From positions 682,001 through 746,000 of the forward strand of contig NZ_BDCO01000003.1 of assembly GCF_001613545.1 (NCBI RefSeq): 64,000 nucleotides of DNA. Reading direction: 5' to 3'. The translations under genes were made by a program, and so were the position numbers. The notes beneath the pieces were generated by a model, which worked only from the letters and a program-made list of their open reading frames with translations, did no database searches and was not told the DNA's origin. The stretch comes from Terrimicrobium sacchariphilum. GTDB taxonomy: Bacteria; Verrucomicrobiota; Verrucomicrobiia; Chthoniobacterales; Terrimicrobiaceae. Shown here piece by piece: positions 56,533 to 63,121 of the stretch. Position 1 is the first letter of the stretch. Each line of letters starts with the position of its first letter.

Positions 56533-58170
56533 TTATGACAGAAAGGAAACGTGGCGCCGCGTAAGCCTCTGTACAAGGAACAGGAGACCAAGTCCCGCCA
56601 GCGCGAGAGTCACGGAGCCGGGTTCGGGAACCACGCTTAAGCTGAGAACCCCTGTATTTTCAGCGAAGGTCCAGGTATTGTTTCCGCTGCTCATCGTCCA
56701 TACATTGGCATTCTCCGTGAAGCCATTGACGGTGAATGTGCTGCCAAAGGTCTCGTCCAGGGTTCCGGTCGTGACGATGGTCCAGCTGTTACCGTCGGCA
56801 ATGGCGGCGCTGGTCAGATCAAAAGTGAAATCACCGTTCAAAGCCAGGGTGCCGGTACCATTGATCTGATTGCTCACGCCGTTGGATCCGATGGCGAATG
56901 TCATCCCGGCATTGTCGGCGAGAACGAGCGTGCCGCTGCTTACCACGGTATTTCCCGTGTAGGTGTTGACTCCTCCGAGGATCCATTTGCCCGTGCCGGT
57001 CTTGGCCAGCGAGGTGGCTCCTCCGTTGTCACCGATGACGACCGAGAGCGAGTTGTCGCCTGCGCTGGATCCGGTCAGCGTGAGCGTGCGCTCGCCGCTC
57101 TGGCCATTGTATCCGATCGCACTTGTTCCGCTAAATGTCACTGCGCCGCTTCCCGATGCGTCCAAAGTGCCGCCATTCGCGCCTACGCTGAAGAGACGAT
57201 CGGTGCTGATCGCTGCTCCCGTGTAACGAAGCGTGCCGCCATTGAGGATCAAGTTGCTGGCTAAACTCGAGGCAGCGCCGATACTGCTGTTGGCACCGCC
57301 GTTGGCGAGAGTCGAGATGCTCAGGATGCCGCCATTGATCGTGGTCGCGCCGGAGTATGTCGAGGCGGTATTTGACAAGGTCAGGGTGCTGGTGCCGGAC
57401 TTGGTCAACGCAAGGATCTGGGTGGCCGAATTGCCGTTGTTCAGATTTCCGCTATACGATGTGCTGGAGGAACCGTTGACTGTTAGCGTGCTCGTCGAGT
57501 TGTTTGTGAGATTTCTGATCACATTGGACGAGTTTGTGCCTGCCAGAGATGCGACAGTGAGGTTCTTCCCGCCCATGAGGATGTTCCCACCAGCCATCGT
57601 CAATGCCGTGTCAGTAGGGAGGGCATTATCGACACCGATCCGCAGGTTGCCAGCCGTGACCCTCGTTGCTCCGGTATAGGTATTGGCCGCTCCCAGCGTA
57701 AGGTTGTAGTTCGCCGCAAATGAAACGCTTTCGTTACCGGTGAGGACGGAATTGATGATGGCATTGGAGCTGGCATTTGTACTGTTCTTAACGGTAACGC
57801 CTGAGCCTCCATTCGAGAATGTGACCGCGCCTCCATTCAAGGTGACGGTGGATGTGCCGCCATTCTGAAAATCCAGGCCGCCGCTTGTCACTCCTCCTCC
57901 CTGCACGGAGACCGTATAGCTTCCTGTGGAAACGGCATCTTTGAATACAGCGGTGTTGCCAGCCCCCGGCCAGGTGCTATCGACTCCCGCGCTCAACCAC
58001 TGGGAATTTGTCGTATCCCAGGTTCCTGTGCCTCCTACGCCTGACTGATTGCCGCTCGGGTCCCACGTCAGAGATATCGCCGGGGAGTTGGTCAGCGACA
58101 GACCGAGCAGGCTGAAGGCTACACATGCCGAGCGGTAGATGGCCGGGGAGGAGGCAAAGGGGGATTTCAT
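56533..58170 (-). CDS. Autotransporter-repeat PEP-CTERM surface protein
   Basis: Exported protein of 545 residues. Signal peptide (about 1-30), then Gly/Thr/Ser/Asn-rich beta-strand repeats of the passenger-associated type (NTYTGATRVTAGNL, STYSGATTINGGILS, NTYTGNTVVSSGTLV), predicted to form a right-handed beta-helix, and a C-terminal PEP-CTERM tag (VPEPGSVTLALAGLGLLFLV then RR). No autotransporter beta-barrel is present, so export is through an exosortase path. Likely a matrix or adhesin protein. A strong terminator follows. Confidence 0.85.
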   Translation of the reverse strand: MKSPFASSPAIYRSACVAFSLLGLSLTNSPAISLTWDPSGNQSGVGGTGTWDTTNSQWLSAGVDSTWPGAGNTAVFKDAVSTGSYTVSVQGGGVTSGGLDFQNGGTSTVTLNGGAVTFSNGGSGVTVKNSTNASSNAIINSVLTGNESVSFAANYNLTLGAANTYTGATRVTAGNLRIGVDNALPTDTALTMAGGNILMGGKNLTVASLAGTNSSNVIRNLTNNSTSTLTVNGSSSTSYSGNLNNGNSATQILALTKSGTSTLTLSNTASTYSGATTINGGILSISTLANGGANSSIGAASSLASNLILNGGTLRYTGAAISTDRLFSVGANGGTLDASGSGAVTFSGTSAIGYNGQSGERTLTLTGSSAGDNSLSVVIGDNGGATSLAKTGTGKWILGGVNTYTGNTVVSSGTLVLADNAGMTFAIGSNGVSNQINGTGTLALNGDFTFDLTSAAIADGNSWTIVTTGTLDETFGSTFTVNGFTENANVWTMSSGNNTWTFAENTGVLSLSVVPEPGSVTLALAGLGLLFLVQRLTRRHVSFLS

Positions 58171-58421: not shown

Positions 58422-58853
58422 CTAGCGGAGGGCGAAGGAAAGACCGGCTGCGTACGCCTCGAAGACGAGCTTGATCTCGTCCCGGACACGCCGGAATTCC
58501 TTCAGGATATCTTCATCAGTTCCGGTGGCATGCGCCGGGTCGTCGAATCCCCAGTGATAACGATGCACCTGACCCGGAAACATCGGGCAGGCCTGGTCGG
58601 CATTGCCGCAAACGGTGATCACTGTGTCGATTTTCGTCTGCAAAAACTCGTCCATGTGCTTCGAGCGGTGAGCGGAAATGTCGATGCCGATTTCCTGCAT
58701 GACCTGGATGGCCTTGGGATGGACGTAGCCGGCAGGCTTTGAGCCAGCGCTCTGGACATTGACGAGGTGACCGGCGGCATGATGGAGAATGCCTTCGGCG
58801 AGGTGACTGCGGCAGGAGTTGCCGGTGCAGAGGATGAGGACCGTGGGTTTCAT
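58422..58853 (-). CDS. arsC: Arsenate reductase ArsC, thioredoxin-coupled LMW-PTP type
   Basis: Reduces arsenate to arsenite using thioredoxin; 143 residues. Close to the Staphylococcus type: catalytic loop [13 protein letters not shown], the second and third redox Cys in [15 protein letters not shown] and the [12 protein letters not shown] stretch. The ATG overlaps the TGA of acr3 as ATGA. It is the last gene of the leftward ars operon; a second reductase of different subtype lies upstream in the same operon. Confidence 0.93.
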
Positions 58854-59929
58854 GAGAGGGTGGGTTTGCTCTGGTACCAATCGCGGCTTTGGACGCAGAT
58901 GCGGCAGACGGAGAGCATGACCGGCACCTCGACGAGCACGCCGACGATGGTGGCCAGCGCGGCGGGGCTGGTCGGGCCGAAGAGCGTGATCGCGACCGCA
59001 ACGGCGAGTTCAAAGAAGTTGCTTGCACCGATGAGAGCGCCGGGTGTGGCGACATTGTGACGCACGCCAAAGAGCCGCATCAGGCCGTAGGTGAGGCCGG
59101 AGTTGAAGTAGACCTGGATGGTGATGGGAATGGCGAGGAGGATGACGGCCAGCCAGTTCGAAAGAAGATTGTCGGCCTGGAAAGCAAAGATGAGCGTGAG
59201 CGTGGCAAGCAGGGCGAGGATGGCGACCGGGCGAAATTTTGGCAGGAATGCGCCCTCGAACCACGCCGAACCCTTTGCCTTGATCAGCGCGAAACGGCTG
59301 AGCCAGCCCGCCGCCAGCGGCACGACGATAAAGACGATCACCGATGTGATGAGGACCTCCGCCGGGATATGGACTCCGCTCACCCCGGCGAGGATCATGA
59401 CGATCGGAGCGAAGGCGAAGACCATGATCAGGTCGTTGATGGCGACCTGAGCCAGCGTGTATGCGCCGTCCCCATCGGTGAGATAACTCCAGACGAAGAC
59501 CATGGCCGTGCAGGGCGCTGCGGCGAGGATGATGAGGCCTGCCACGTAGTTGGCCGCCGTGGTGGGTTCGATCCAGCCGAGGACGGAGGAAAAAAGTCCC
59601 TGGATGAAAATCCAGCCCAGCGCAGCCATGCTGAGCGGTTTGATGATCCAGTTGACGAACAAGGTGACGAGGAGTCCCCTCGGTTTCTGAAAGACGCCAT
59701 GAATCCCGCCGAAGTCGATCTTCAGCATCATGGGAAAGATCATGAGCCAGATCAGGATGGCGATGGCGATGTTGACGTGGGAGCCCTGGCCAAACTCCCA
59801 TCGGCTGACAGCGGCGGTGACACCGGGCAGGAACTTGCCGATCGTCACTCCGGCGACCATGCAGACGAGCACCCAGGCGGAGAGATAGCGCTCGAAGAAA
59901 TCGAGGCGCTTGGCGACGTTGGTGGTCAT
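58850..59929 (-). CDS. acr3: Arsenite efflux transporter Acr3
   Basis: Ten-helix arsenite exporter of the ACR3/BART family, 359 residues. Family signatures include [33 protein letters not shown] with the essential Cys, and [21 protein letters not shown]. It removes arsenite produced by ArsC, and can be energised by ArsA, encoded 10 bases upstream. It is coupled to the last arsC gene by ATGA. Confidence 0.95.
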
Positions 59930-59939
59930 CGTGTGTGGC

Positions 59940-61922
59940 TTAGCAGCAGCCGGTCCCTCCGCAGCACTCGCTGCTCGCCTTGGCCAGCGGTTGATCGCCG
60001 ATCATGACTCGACGGATCGCTTCGCCCGTCTCGGGGTGCCGGGTCAGGGCGGGGGCCGCTTCTTCCTGCTTGATCTCGTAATGCTTCGGAGTTTCGCAGC
60101 AGCCAGAGGGGAGGGTTTCGTAGATGTAGGTTTTCATGAAAGGGAAGGGGGACGAGGTTGCAAAAAGGGAGGCCAGCGCTGCCGAGCCGATAGGCTCCTC
60201 GGCCTGCCAGGTGATCATGGCAGAGCGCTTCGCAAGCGAGGTTACCTCAGCGAGGTAAGGCCCTTCATTGATTGCACGGTGTCTTAGCACGGGGTCGTTG
60301 GAGCCGAGTGACGTAAGGCACTGGTTGACGACCCAGCCAAAAGGCTCGATGCCTGCGCGGCGGAGATCGTCTTGGAGTTGAGCCGCTTCATGGACCGGGG
60401 TGGCCTCGGGCAGGGTGACCAGGATCACCCGGGTGAAATCGGGATCTCTCAGGCGCGGTAGCAGGGTGCGGACATCCTCCGGAATCGTGTCGCGCGACTG
60501 TCGGCCGAGTTCGCGATGATAGGCCTCGGTCGTATCGAGCAGCAGCAGGGTATGCCCGGTCGGGGCGGTATCCAGGATGACAAATCCATCGCTGGCTGCC
60601 GCCACCGTACGCGCGAACGCTCGAAACACGGCGATTTCCTCTGTGCACGGCGAGCGCAGATCCTCGGCCAGCAGGGCCCGGCTCTCTGCATCGAGCTGGG
60701 CTCCCTGGGTTTCCATGACCTGCGCGACATAGGCGCTCGTTTCCTCCTGCGGGTCGATGCGGCTGACGGCGAGGCCCTGGGAGTTTCCCTGCAGGGTATC
60801 CAGCAGGTGCGCCGCCGGGTCGGTGGTGGATAGGTGCACGGCATGGCCCCGGCTCACAAGCTCCATGGCAATGGCGGCTGCAAGGGTGGTTTTGCCTACT
60901 CCTCCCTTGCCCATCGTCATGATGATGCCACGACCAGCTTGTTCCAGCTCGGAAAGAAAGTCGCCGATATTCTCAAAGAGGGGCATCGCGATGACTGGTG
61001 CCTCGGGAGCCGCTTTCAGATCCGAAGCAGTTCCTGTGATGGCGCGCAAGGCATTGAGTCCAATGAGATTTGTCGGCCGGAGAGGTATGTGGCAGACAGG
61101 CAACTGGTTCAGGAAATCCGCGAAATGGGCGAGCGCACGTTTTCCTCGAGCCTCCATCGCCGTCGCGATGCGATCTCCGTCCACGCTGGAGGTGAACAGG
61201 CCATTCAGGACGAGGCGTTGATTGGAGACTCCGAGAGCGAGCAATTCCTCGTGTGTTCTCCGGGCTTCGCGCAGGGGAGCCATTTCCGCTCGGCTGACAA
61301 GAATGACGCTCGCAAGTGCGGGGTTGGTCAGAGCCTTGAGCGCGCCTTCGTAGACTGAGCGCTGCTGGTCGAGTCCGGCGAGCGGACCGAGACATGAGGT
61401 TCCCGAAGTGTTGGTCTGAAAGAATCCCGTCCAAGCCTTGGGCAGGGTCAGCAGACGCAACGTGTGTCCGGTCGGCGCGGTGTCAAAGATGACATGATCG
61501 TATCCCATCGTCGATGTGGGCTCGCCGAGGAAACGGGAAAACTCGTCAAAAGCGGCAATCTCCATCGTGCATGCGCCGGAGAGCTGCTCCTCCATGTTTT
61601 CCAGGGCGGCGTCGGGCAGAATGCCGCGCATAGGGCCGATGATCTTCTCGCGGTATTGCCGGGCGGCCTCCTGGGGATCGATGTTCAGCGCGAACAAGCC
61701 AGGCACCCGCGGAATCTGCCGCGGCTCGTGGGAAAGCGGCGTCTCCAGGACCTCGTCGAGATTCGAGGCCGGATCTGTGCTGACCAACAGTACCCGCCTT
61801 CCGGCGTCAGCGAGAGAAATCGCCGTGGCACAGGCGAGTGATGTCTTTCCTACTCCGCCCTTGCCGGTGAAAAACAGGAACCGAGTGGCCGAGGACAGGA
61901 AATCCGAGAAATCCACGCTCAT
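59940..61922 (-). CDS. arsA: Arsenite-stimulated ATPase ArsA with cysteine-pair tail
   Basis: Tandem-duplicated P-loop ATPase of 660 residues that drives arsenite export. Walker A motifs GKGGVGKTSL (about 20) and GKGGVGKTTL (about 340) and two DTAPTGHTL segments mark the halves. Cysteines equivalent to E. coli C113, C172 and C422 are kept (SGACTMEIAAFDEF, SCLGPLAG, PCTEEIAVF). The ArsA core ends near residue 595; a 65-residue tail follows that starts MKTYIYETLPSGCCETP, resembles small FmdB-like zinc-ribbon proteins and ends ECCGGTGCC. Three vicinal Cys pairs (608-609, 653-654, 659-660) suggest metalloid binding. The ATG overlaps the TGA of arsD. Confidence 0.92.
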   Translation of the reverse strand: MSVDFSDFLSSATRFLFFTGKGGVGKTSLACATAISLADAGRRVLLVSTDPASNLDEVLETPLSHEPRQIPRVPGLFALNIDPQEAARQYREKIIGPMRGILPDAALENMEEQLSGACTMEIAAFDEFSRFLGEPTSTMGYDHVIFDTAPTGHTLRLLTLPKAWTGFFQTNTSGTSCLGPLAGLDQQRSVYEGALKALTNPALASVILVSRAEMAPLREARRTHEELLALGVSNQRLVLNGLFTSSVDGDRIATAMEARGKRALAHFADFLNQLPVCHIPLRPTNLIGLNALRAITGTASDLKAAPEAPVIAMPLFENIGDFLSELEQAGRGIIMTMGKGGVGKTTLAAAIAMELVSRGHAVHLSTTDPAAHLLDTLQGNSQGLAVSRIDPQEETSAYVAQVMETQGAQLDAESRALLAEDLRSPCTEEIAVFRAFARTVAAASDGFVILDTAPTGHTLLLLDTTEAYHRELGRQSRDTIPEDVRTLLPRLRDPDFTRVILVTLPEATPVHEAAQLQDDLRRAGIEPFGWVVNQCLTSLGSNDPVLRHRAINEGPYLAEVTSLAKRSAMITWQAEEPIGSAALASLFATSSPFPFMKTYIYETLPSGCCETPKHYEIKQEEAAPALTRHPETGEAIRRVMIGDQPLAKASSECCGGTGCC

Positions 61923-62239
61923 GGCAGCCGGGCCTTTTCCGCTGTGAGCCATGCCTGCCGGGTGGCTTCATCAGGATAGGCGCCCTTGAAGGCGATCTCT
62001 CCATCGACAAAGACCAGTGGCAGCACGGTGATGCCCTCTTTCTGAAGGAGATCTTTTACCTGCCCATTCTGGGCAAAGGCAATCGGCTGCTGGGCGAGAT
62101 TGTAGCGCTCCACGCGCACTCCGCAGTCCTTGAGCTGATGCAGCCATCCCGCCACGGCGGCCAGCACCGGATCGACATCCGGGCCGCAGACGCCTGTGGA
62201 ACAGCACATTGCCGGGTCGTAAACTTGAAGGGATTTCAT
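61919..62239 (-). CDS. arsD: Arsenite metallochaperone ArsD
   Basis: Delivers arsenite to ArsA; 106 residues of thioredoxin-like fold. The As(III) site is kept as AMCCSTGVCGPDVDP (vicinal Cys pair plus a third Cys), and QNGQVKDLLQKEGITVLPLV is typical. The C-terminal vicinal Cys pairs of plasmid ArsD are absent, leaving a Cys-free end. Coupled by ATGA to both neighbours: the arsC stop overlaps its start, and its stop overlaps arsA. Confidence 0.95.
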   Translation of the reverse strand: MKSLQVYDPAMCCSTGVCGPDVDPVLAAVAGWLHQLKDCGVRVERYNLAQQPIAFAQNGQVKDLLQKEGITVLPLVFVDGEIAFKGAYPDEATRQAWLTAEKARLP

Positions 62240-62754
62240 ATCGTTGCAACGGATTGATCGAGGTCAAGAGCCTCCCTTGCGCCAATGTCTTTCATTGCTG
62301 CTTCAAGACGGAGCGAATCGAGCTTTTCAAACGGCAGGGAGGCGAGAAGCTCCAGACGGCGTCGGATCTGCTGGGCAACCTGCCAGAAAGCGCGCTCTTT
62401 CTCGGTATCGCCGCCCTCAAACTCCGCCGGGTCGGGGGACGGCCAGTGAGCGATGATCGGCTGGCCCGGCCATACCGGGCAGGATTCCTTTGCGTTGTCG
62501 CAAAGGGTGATGACGAAATCGAAGCGTTTTCCCTGATACTCGCTCCACGATTTGCTGCGAGCCTCGGAGACATCGATCTTGTAATGGTCGCGCAGGACTT
62601 GCAGCGCCAACCGGTGCGGAGCGGGTTTGGGGCTGGCTCCAGCGCTGAAGACATCGAATCTATCGGGCGCGATTTTGCGGAGCAAAAACTCTGCGAGGAT
62701 GCTGCGGGCGGAGTTTCCCGTGCAGAGAAAGAGGATTTGGAATTTGGTGGACAT
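62236..62754 (-). CDS. arsC: Arsenate reductase ArsC, longer LMW-PTP-like type
   Basis: Second arsenate reductase, 172 residues. Catalytic loop CTGNSARSILAEF and a CDNAKESCPVWPG pair supply the redox cysteines; the IAHWPSPDPAEFEGGD segment marks a subtype common in Gram-negative ars operons. A C-terminal extension of about 30 residues is of unknown role. It lies 4 bases after arsR and overlaps arsD by 4 bases. Differences from the other copy (Ala for Cys in the loop, length) argue for separate origin rather than a recent duplication. Confidence 0.92.
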   Translation of the reverse strand: MSTKFQILFLCTGNSARSILAEFLLRKIAPDRFDVFSAGASPKPAPHRLALQVLRDHYKIDVSEARSKSWSEYQGKRFDFVITLCDNAKESCPVWPGQPIIAHWPSPDPAEFEGGDTEKERAFWQVAQQIRRRLELLASLPFEKLDSLRLEAAMKDIGAREALDLDQSVATI

Positions 62755-62758
62755 AGTG

Positions 62759-63121
62759 TTAGCAGCAGGACTTTGGGCCGCAGTATTCTTTCCAGTCGGA
62801 GCACTTCTGGATTCTTGAGAGGCGGGTGAGATCCTCGTGGAACATCTTGTCGGATGCCGTGCAATCCTGCAGGCATTTCAGGTTGGCCTCGAGTTCCCGG
62901 GTCGGTCTTTCTGGTAAAGAGTAGATGATCCAGGTGCCTTTGCGGGTAGTCTCCACCATCTCATGCTTGCGCAGGTAGGCGAGATGCTGGGAGACCTTTG
63001 CCTGCGGGATGTCAAGGATCTGTTGAAAGTGACACACGCACAACGGACCATGTGTCAGCAAGTTAACGATGCGCAGCCGGGTACGGTCGCAGAGGCATTG
63101 GTAGATCTGAATGAGATCCAT
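62759..63121 (-). CDS. arsR: Arsenic-responsive repressor ArsR
   Basis: ArsR/SmtB winged-helix repressor of 120 residues that leaves its operator when arsenite binds. The metal-site motif CVC (Cys28, Cys30) lies in PLCVCHFQQILDIPQAKVSQ, the start of the recognition-helix region; extra Cys lie at 9 and 11 and in a C-terminal CGPKSCC. First gene of the ars operon. Its ATG coincides with the predicted transcription start of an embedded promoter, so the mRNA may be leaderless; no ribosome site is seen. Confidence 0.93.
   Translation of the reverse strand: MDLIQIYQCLCDRTRLRIVNLLTHGPLCVCHFQQILDIPQAKVSQHLAYLRKHEMVETTRKGTWIIYSLPERPTRELEANLKCLQDCTASDKMFHEDLTRLSRIQKCSDWKEYCGPKSCC

Follow-up and report, generated by a model that had tools for sequence, protein, structure and literature searches.

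The window, a 64,000-nucleotide stretch of the Terrimicrobium sacchariphilum genome, carries on its minus strand an ars operon with the order arsR, arsC-like, arsD, arsA with an in-frame tail, acr3 and a second arsC-like gene (Table 1). The acr3 gene begins 10 bp past the arsA stop. Translation of arsA more likely starts at position 61922, where an ATG forms an ATGA overlap with the arsD stop; this gives a protein of 660 aa within a frame that is open for 670 codons. Directly beyond the operon, 56533..58170 encodes a protein of 545 aa that has a PEP-CTERM motif and passenger-associated-transport repeats. ArsD has a CCSTGVC motif near its N-terminus and, just as the sequence-only reading of this DNA had stated, no C-terminal Cys pairs. 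Cys 128, 187 and 436 of ArsA are invariant across 15 aligned ArsA proteins, and their spacings fit the numbers of the metalloid-site cysteines C113, C172 and C422 given for E. coli ArsA in PMC2963123, a correspondence by numbering. Because these three cysteines are kept, a receiving site probably exists in ArsA, and the tail does not seem, as far as the residues indicate, to be a replacement of the ArsA metalloid site.

Table 1. Features of the ars operon in the window, in the direction of transcription
Feature	Coordinates	Strand	Remarks
arsR	62759..63121	-	ends CGPKSCC; NF033788 82.1 bits, cut-off 55
arsC-like gene	62236..62754	-	TIGR02691 83.3 bits, under cut-off 174.3
arsD	61919..62239	-	106 aa; NF033727 119.3 bits, cut-off 90
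arsA open reading frame	61952..59940	-	670 codons
ArsA proper	60195..61952	-	two GKGGVGKT halves; TIGR04291 766.5 bits, above cut-off 650
Variable linker	60138..60194	-	between ArsA profile end (residue 586) and tail
ArsA tail, of apparent FmdB descent	60137..59943 coding, stop to 59940	-	65 aa, residues 606-670 of 670-aa ORF
First vicinal pair, tail Cys13-Cys14	60096..60101	-	loop after strand 1
C-terminal CC-x4-CC, tail Cys58/59 and 64/65	59943..59966	-	tail end
acr3 arsenite efflux transporter	58850..59929	-	TIGR00832 361.3 bits, cut-off 282.8
Second arsC-like gene	58422..58853	-	TIGR02691 145 bits, under cut-off 174.3

The tail, MKTYIYETLPSGCCETP...SECCGGTGCC, lies outside canonical ArsA, because the NCBIfam ArsA profile TIGR04291 covers residues 22-586 and the closest solved ArsA chains (PDB 1f48 and 9nbl) match residues 18-597 and 18-595 only. 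Its six cysteines form three vicinal pairs, and at least three CC pairs arise in 83 of 200,000 shuffles of its own letters; the 65 extra in-frame residues read as first described. The same fusion is found in Spartobacteria bacterium LR76 (L007) and in a Verrucomicrobia MAG (L006), which apparently correspond to G471 and G470, so that it is present in all three sampled species of the genus, in which the six tail cysteines are invariant. Pairwise dN/dS among the three species, computed with our own Nei-Gojobori script, is lowest in the tail (0.086, 0.070, 0.054), intermediate in the ArsA core (0.109, 0.117, 0.094) and highest over the 42-43 aligned codons (45 alignment columns) that precede the tail (0.208, 0.287, 0.219). 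The tail is thus a protein under purifying selection, which is stricter than that on ArsA. A sequencing error or frameshift as the source of the fusion, and a tail restricted to a single strain and without metalloid binding, had both been raised as possible objections. A frameshift or assembly error is ruled out by the open frame common to three species, whose linkers differ in length by whole codons and whose tails have low dN/dS, so that the window fusion is no artefact; the second does not hold, as the tail extends beyond one strain.

Profile comparison places the tail among relatives of the FmdB proteins, as had been supposed. The window tail itself has no Pfam match (E <= 10) and no NCBIfam match (E <= 1), and none of the ars-linked relatives tested passes an FmdB-family cut-off; a free-standing copy in G578 scores 19.0 bits against a cut-off of 34.4 (PF09723 / TIGR02605). 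When a 12-row profile of ars-linked copies was compared with FmdB proteins, hhalign gave 97.1% probability and E 5.6e-11 over columns 1-52, with inputs that are shallow (12 and 3 rows). Of the three FmdB proteins used (L147, L004 and L146), L147 and L004 were scanned with Zn_ribbon_8, and both exceed its cut-off, at 44.8 and 41.9 bits. In the alignment FmdB C13xxC16 corresponds to C13-C14-E-T16 of the tail and FmdB C34-P-x-C37 to H34-P-E-T37, so that both CxxC knuckles are broken and only Cys13, the counterpart of the first FmdB knuckle Cys, retains a knuckle position. With CCET in place of C13xxC16, the loop pair occupies the position where the first knuckle has been broken. These alignments indicate that the tail descends from FmdB zinc-ribbon proteins and has lost both CxxC knuckles. 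The DPETG-like core that had been taken as typical of small zinc-ribbon proteins does mark an FmdB-like branch, but this branch has lost the zinc knuckles, so that the core is probably not itself a zinc ribbon.

Structure prediction gives the tail three strands (2-8, 19-24 and 40-46; pLDDT 72.9), and a full-length model places strands at 606-613, 624-630 and 645-654 with low confidence. Neither Foldseek (best E 0.2, a release-factor C-terminal domain) nor VIA-align (best Z 3.7, a mitoribosome chain and a release factor, followed by MCM domains) gave a significant match to the tail model, and the PDB sequences gave no match to the tail profile. Several of the weak structural matches (mitoribosome chain, release factor, MCM) are proteins that we take to be zinc ribbons. 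The three-strand predicted fold, the FmdB ancestry and the conserved non-Cys core of the family (T-Y-x-Y-E ... H-P-x-x-G ... R-V) would all suit a structural or docking domain without an As(III) role, which would either coordinate a soft metal such as Zn(II) or dock ArsA to ACR3 or ArsD. Such a domain is unlikely, since neither of the ancestral zinc knuckles is intact and since Cys pairs are what distinguishes the ars-linked copies. The C-terminal residues of the tail are modelled with low confidence and yield no site geometry, which counts against the proposal, set out below, that the tail relays arsenite to ArsA.

Homologues of the tail were found in 64 of 387 genomes of the phylum (E <= 0.001) and in 109 of 213 of the order; a tail-family search of the class (12-row profile, E <= 1e-10) found 162 of 384. 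In 12 other ars operons the homologue is encoded separately, directly behind arsA and on its strand, at gaps of -4 to 277 bp: 11 bp in a second operon of G470, 12 in G578, 23 in G581, 38 in G586, 23 in G369, 19 in both G482 and G484, 184 in G119 and 277 in G158, and, from the class search, -4 in G970 (an ATGA overlap), 2 in G944 and 31 in G916. The genome of T. sacchariphilum also holds an unlinked free-standing paralogue (L002:1438-1707) that ends CGCGAGGCGR and adjoins a divergent ORF which by eye is prephenate-dehydratase-like. ArsA occurs in 30 of the 387 genomes of the phylum sample and in 17 of the 213 of the order, and a tail-family gene is fused or adjacent to it in 4 of these 30 and 9 of these 17, the 17 including G413, which was not assessable for the tail. 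That ArsA is often without a tail counts against an arsenite relay. Farther afield, the tail was absent from genomes G589, G591 and G592 (0/3); one of 299 genomes in the phylum of G589 has a 133-residue frame with HPETG, and two of four in the phylum of G590 have FmdB-like proteins that keep the CPxC second knuckle. Plasmids gave one chance-level match only (E 1), and in viral contigs none was confirmed. The distribution in Verrucomicrobiota, fused in three species of the genus and free in 12 operons, together with a second fusion elsewhere, agrees with the earlier suggestion of a fused former neighbour gene, and the origin of the tail as a former neighbour that became joined to ArsA is well supported by these gene arrangements.

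The free-standing homologues begin at a Met that matches Met606 of the fused protein, and Met606 is kept in the three genus members despite the fast-changing linker. An internal start at this codon could produce a free tail in addition to the fused ArsA. By eye, no Shine-Dalgarno sequence precedes any of nine free-standing or three fused copies, so that its absence is no argument against such a start; the reading frame that stayed open through the linker in the fused copies does speak against it. This double product, which is compatible with the other readings, seems somewhat unlikely.

A second fusion was found in G1024, from another family of the class, in which a single open frame joins arsA to a tail homologue whose Cys type is different (it ends CCGPSCGCH). 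Its ArsA is nearest to that of G944 (91% identical), where the tail is a separate gene. Given its well-supported branches, a 45-protein ArsA tree requires a minimum of two changes in the fused state. A single clade of the four fused ArsA was rejected (p-AU 6e-63) with a quick tree and with a group that was picked after an earlier tree had been viewed. From these sequences, arsA and the tail appear to have been fused a second time in another lineage, with the reservation that this is one genome, in which an error is possible. Proteins whose neighbouring genes have been fused more than once usually work together, an established inference from gene fusions.

The cysteine pattern of the family differs between copies on or beside arsA and copies elsewhere. 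The comparison covers 72 distinct family proteins whose neighbourhood was seen (16 ars-linked and 56 not), which are those with a fetched locus, mostly best-scoring hits with mostly 1.5 kb flanks, rather than all hits; the 72 rows are related, and Fisher p-values that are not corrected for descent overstate their independence. A -GCC end is found in 13/16 ars-linked copies vs 1/56 others, a CC in the first 25 residues in 8/16 vs 0/56, at least five Cys in 10/16 vs 1/56, and any CC in 16/16 vs 15/56. An earlier rule that all ars-linked copies and no others end in -GCC (11/11 vs 0/49) was weakened by this larger sample. The ars-linked copies of G916, G944 and G1024 lack the -GCC end and, since the loop pair occurs in only half of the 16, no single Cys set is universal. 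This lack of a common set counts against an arsenite relay, as do the CC in 15 copies away from arsA, the -GCC end of the G984 copy, which has no ars gene in the 10 kb around it, and the ability of glycine-cysteine ends to bind Zn or other soft metals. Among the 56, the copy of G483 (L094) ends CGSGCGCHA and lies within 1.5 kb of an ArsC-like ORF, with no arsA in view. A scan of the window and of 34 loci, which include many ars loci, covered 3,144 distinct six-frame ORFs, of which 25 end in the C-terminal paired-Cys pattern: nine tails, 14 ArsD (assigned by profile or by the CCxxGxC site), one arsenite methyltransferase (NF008823, 334.3 bits, cut-off 263) and one apparently spurious frame. As the non-tail bearers include ArsD and an arsenite methyltransferase, the other bearers of this pattern handle As(III).

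The data do not support a simple replacement, by the tail, of the pairs missing from ArsD. In the first set, C-terminal Cys were present in none of 12 ArsD from tail operons vs 17 of 31 from tail-less operons (Fisher p 0.001); for G369 and G484 among the 12, the two sides of a contig break were linked through the ArsA halves, G404, G393, G127 and later G916 were left out as their ArsD was not visible, G393 shows about 375 bp downstream, G413 is among the 31 with its downstream side out of view, and G247 and G159 make a weaker case, since what matches ArsD there is a long protein (~248 aa). Three tail operons were added later: ArsD of G970 is without C-terminal Cys, that of G944 has them, and in G1024 a protein end with Cys pairs that resembles G944 ArsD is cut by the contig end. 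With these, ArsD lacks C-terminal Cys in 13 of the 15 tail operons with the ArsD end in view. Mutual exclusion of the tail and ArsD C-terminal Cys was dropped as a rule in view of G944, the probably similar cut protein of G1024 and too few independent pairs. The ArsA tree holds too few independent contrasts to test the pattern, so that an ArsD without C-terminal Cys where a tail is present appears to be a tendency, indistinguishable on that tree from shared descent. The idea that the pairs had moved onto ArsA because ArsD lacks them is weakened accordingly, with both present in G944 and apparently in G1024.

The tail has no match to an ArsD profile (NCBIfam and Pfam, E <= 1). Its CC-x4-CC end is similar to those of Enterococcus and Alkalibacterium ArsD, and such short ends cannot, as sequence evidence, prove tail-ArsD kinship; a series from CGCGPSGCC to CCSGSGCC suggests instead that the Cys pairs arose inside the tail family. 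Some ArsD proteins show further elaborations. In G944 (L171:3986-4690) ArsD is fused to an AhpD/carboxymuconolactone-decarboxylase-like domain (PF06953 + PF02627) with a Cys-pair end, the G1024 fragment (L169:2-328) is by eye the cut-off end of a protein similar to this fusion, and the ArsD C-terminus of G131 (L113:7542-8078) repeats CCGDDE-like units and ends DCCGGSSCC. The identical CC-x4-CC spacing raises the question of whether the tail could be a sensor or regulator, with As(III)-sensing pairs that tune operon expression or the activity of ArsA, a role proposed for the pairs at the C-terminus of R773 ArsD. According to PMC4562236, C-terminal ArsD pairs were linked to regulation, and an ArsD that lacked them did not bind its promoter. 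The tail, however, shows no DNA-binding domain by Pfam or NCBIfam match and is physically attached to an ATPase, an ArsR is already encoded in the operon, and G944 and, as far as visible, G1024 carry ArsD pairs plus the tail. A sensing role is very unlikely on this evidence.

The second ars operon of G470 is accompanied by genes for an arsenite methyltransferase ending TCCEESCCS (L116:3097-3960, minus strand) and a thioredoxin reductase (L116:4566-5528, minus strand), both above NCBIfam cut-offs, and an ArsR-like ORF beside it (L116:5551-5946) ends KRACC, the window ArsR likewise having a Cys-pair end. The adjoining thioredoxin reductase gene would fit a tail that has retained the role of small zinc-ribbon proteins as redox or folding chaperones and protects ArsA or As(III)-damaged proteins via thiol-disulfide change with thioredoxin, As(III) binding being secondary. 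A precedent is Ruc (Rv0991c), described in PMC7448276 as a zinc-binding protein whose N-terminal ~50 aa adopt a zinc-ribbon fold, while its C-terminus is variable; in its oxidised form it prevents aggregation, and 60.81% of 74 Verrucomicrobia genomes were found to have it. The likeness of Ruc and the tail is one of description, and FmdB is not named in PMC7448276. The tail is without the four zinc Cys of Ruc-type proteins, its pairs are adjacent rather than CxxC, and its fusion partner is ArsA, which makes such a chaperone quite unlikely.

The carrier known to bring cytosolic arsenite to ArsA is ArsD. According to the respective papers, ArsD delivers As(III) to ArsA (PMC2963123), its Cys12, 13 and 18, which include a vicinal pair, serve the As(III) chaperone function, and three thiols likewise handle As(III) in ArsR (PMC4562236). 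The reading we prefer is that the tail, a fused former neighbour derived from FmdB that lost its zinc knuckles and gained Cys pairs, is an arsenite-holding thiol arm for ArsA, a proposal that we regard as evenly balanced. In this mechanism the pairs 13/14, 58/59 and 64/65 would hold As(III) whose source is ArsD, arsenate reduction or the cytosol. Thiol exchange would then move it from the tail to the metalloid site that lies between the ArsA halves. The hand-over would raise the effective affinity of ArsA at low arsenite, with free-standing copies acting in trans and the fused form in cis. We infer As(III) binding, hand-over and the affinity effect as the best explanation of what was found directly, namely the fusion, the homology, the adjacency, the selection, the Cys pattern and, in one genome, the second fusion.

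More broadly, the copies behind arsA in several verrucomicrobial lineages may represent an undescribed ars-operon family of FmdB-derived, zinc-free, Cys-pair arsenite relays that was fused at least twice into a built-in arsenite-collecting arm, a generalization to which we give slightly less than even credence. A literature search, with subscription journals mostly outside its coverage, found neither this tail nor an FmdB-like ars gene described. The protein is an ArsA with a new accessory domain. A second thiol protein on ArsA, free or fused, would if true be a natural cis delivery step that can be cleanly removed and mutated, and a zinc-ribbon scaffold without zinc sites would have been re-equipped with vicinal thiols. 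For annotators, the family would give a name to a gene of which the copies tested here are missed or fall under the cut-off in Pfam and NCBIfam.

Compared with known systems, the tail is, by description only, like Ruc (Rv0991c), according to PMC7448276 a small zinc-ribbon protein with a variable C-terminus that is common in Verrucomicrobia, whereas Ruc keeps its four zinc Cys. The window ArsA resembles known ArsA (TIGR04291; PDB 1f48 and 9nbl) over residues 18-597, with two Walker A halves and the conserved Cys; the solved chains have 589 and 594 aa and match no further than residue 595-597, short of the tail. The ars-linked profile is like the FmdB zinc ribbon (PF09723 / TIGR02605) in columns 1-52, whereas the tail is unlike it in its broken knuckles, in its Cys pairs at the loop and the C-terminus, and in scores of the family that stay under the cut-offs. 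With the ArsD metallochaperone the tail has in common the C-terminal CC-x4-CC of the Enterococcus and Alkalibacterium proteins; unlike ArsD, it matches no ArsD profile and is located on or behind ArsA.
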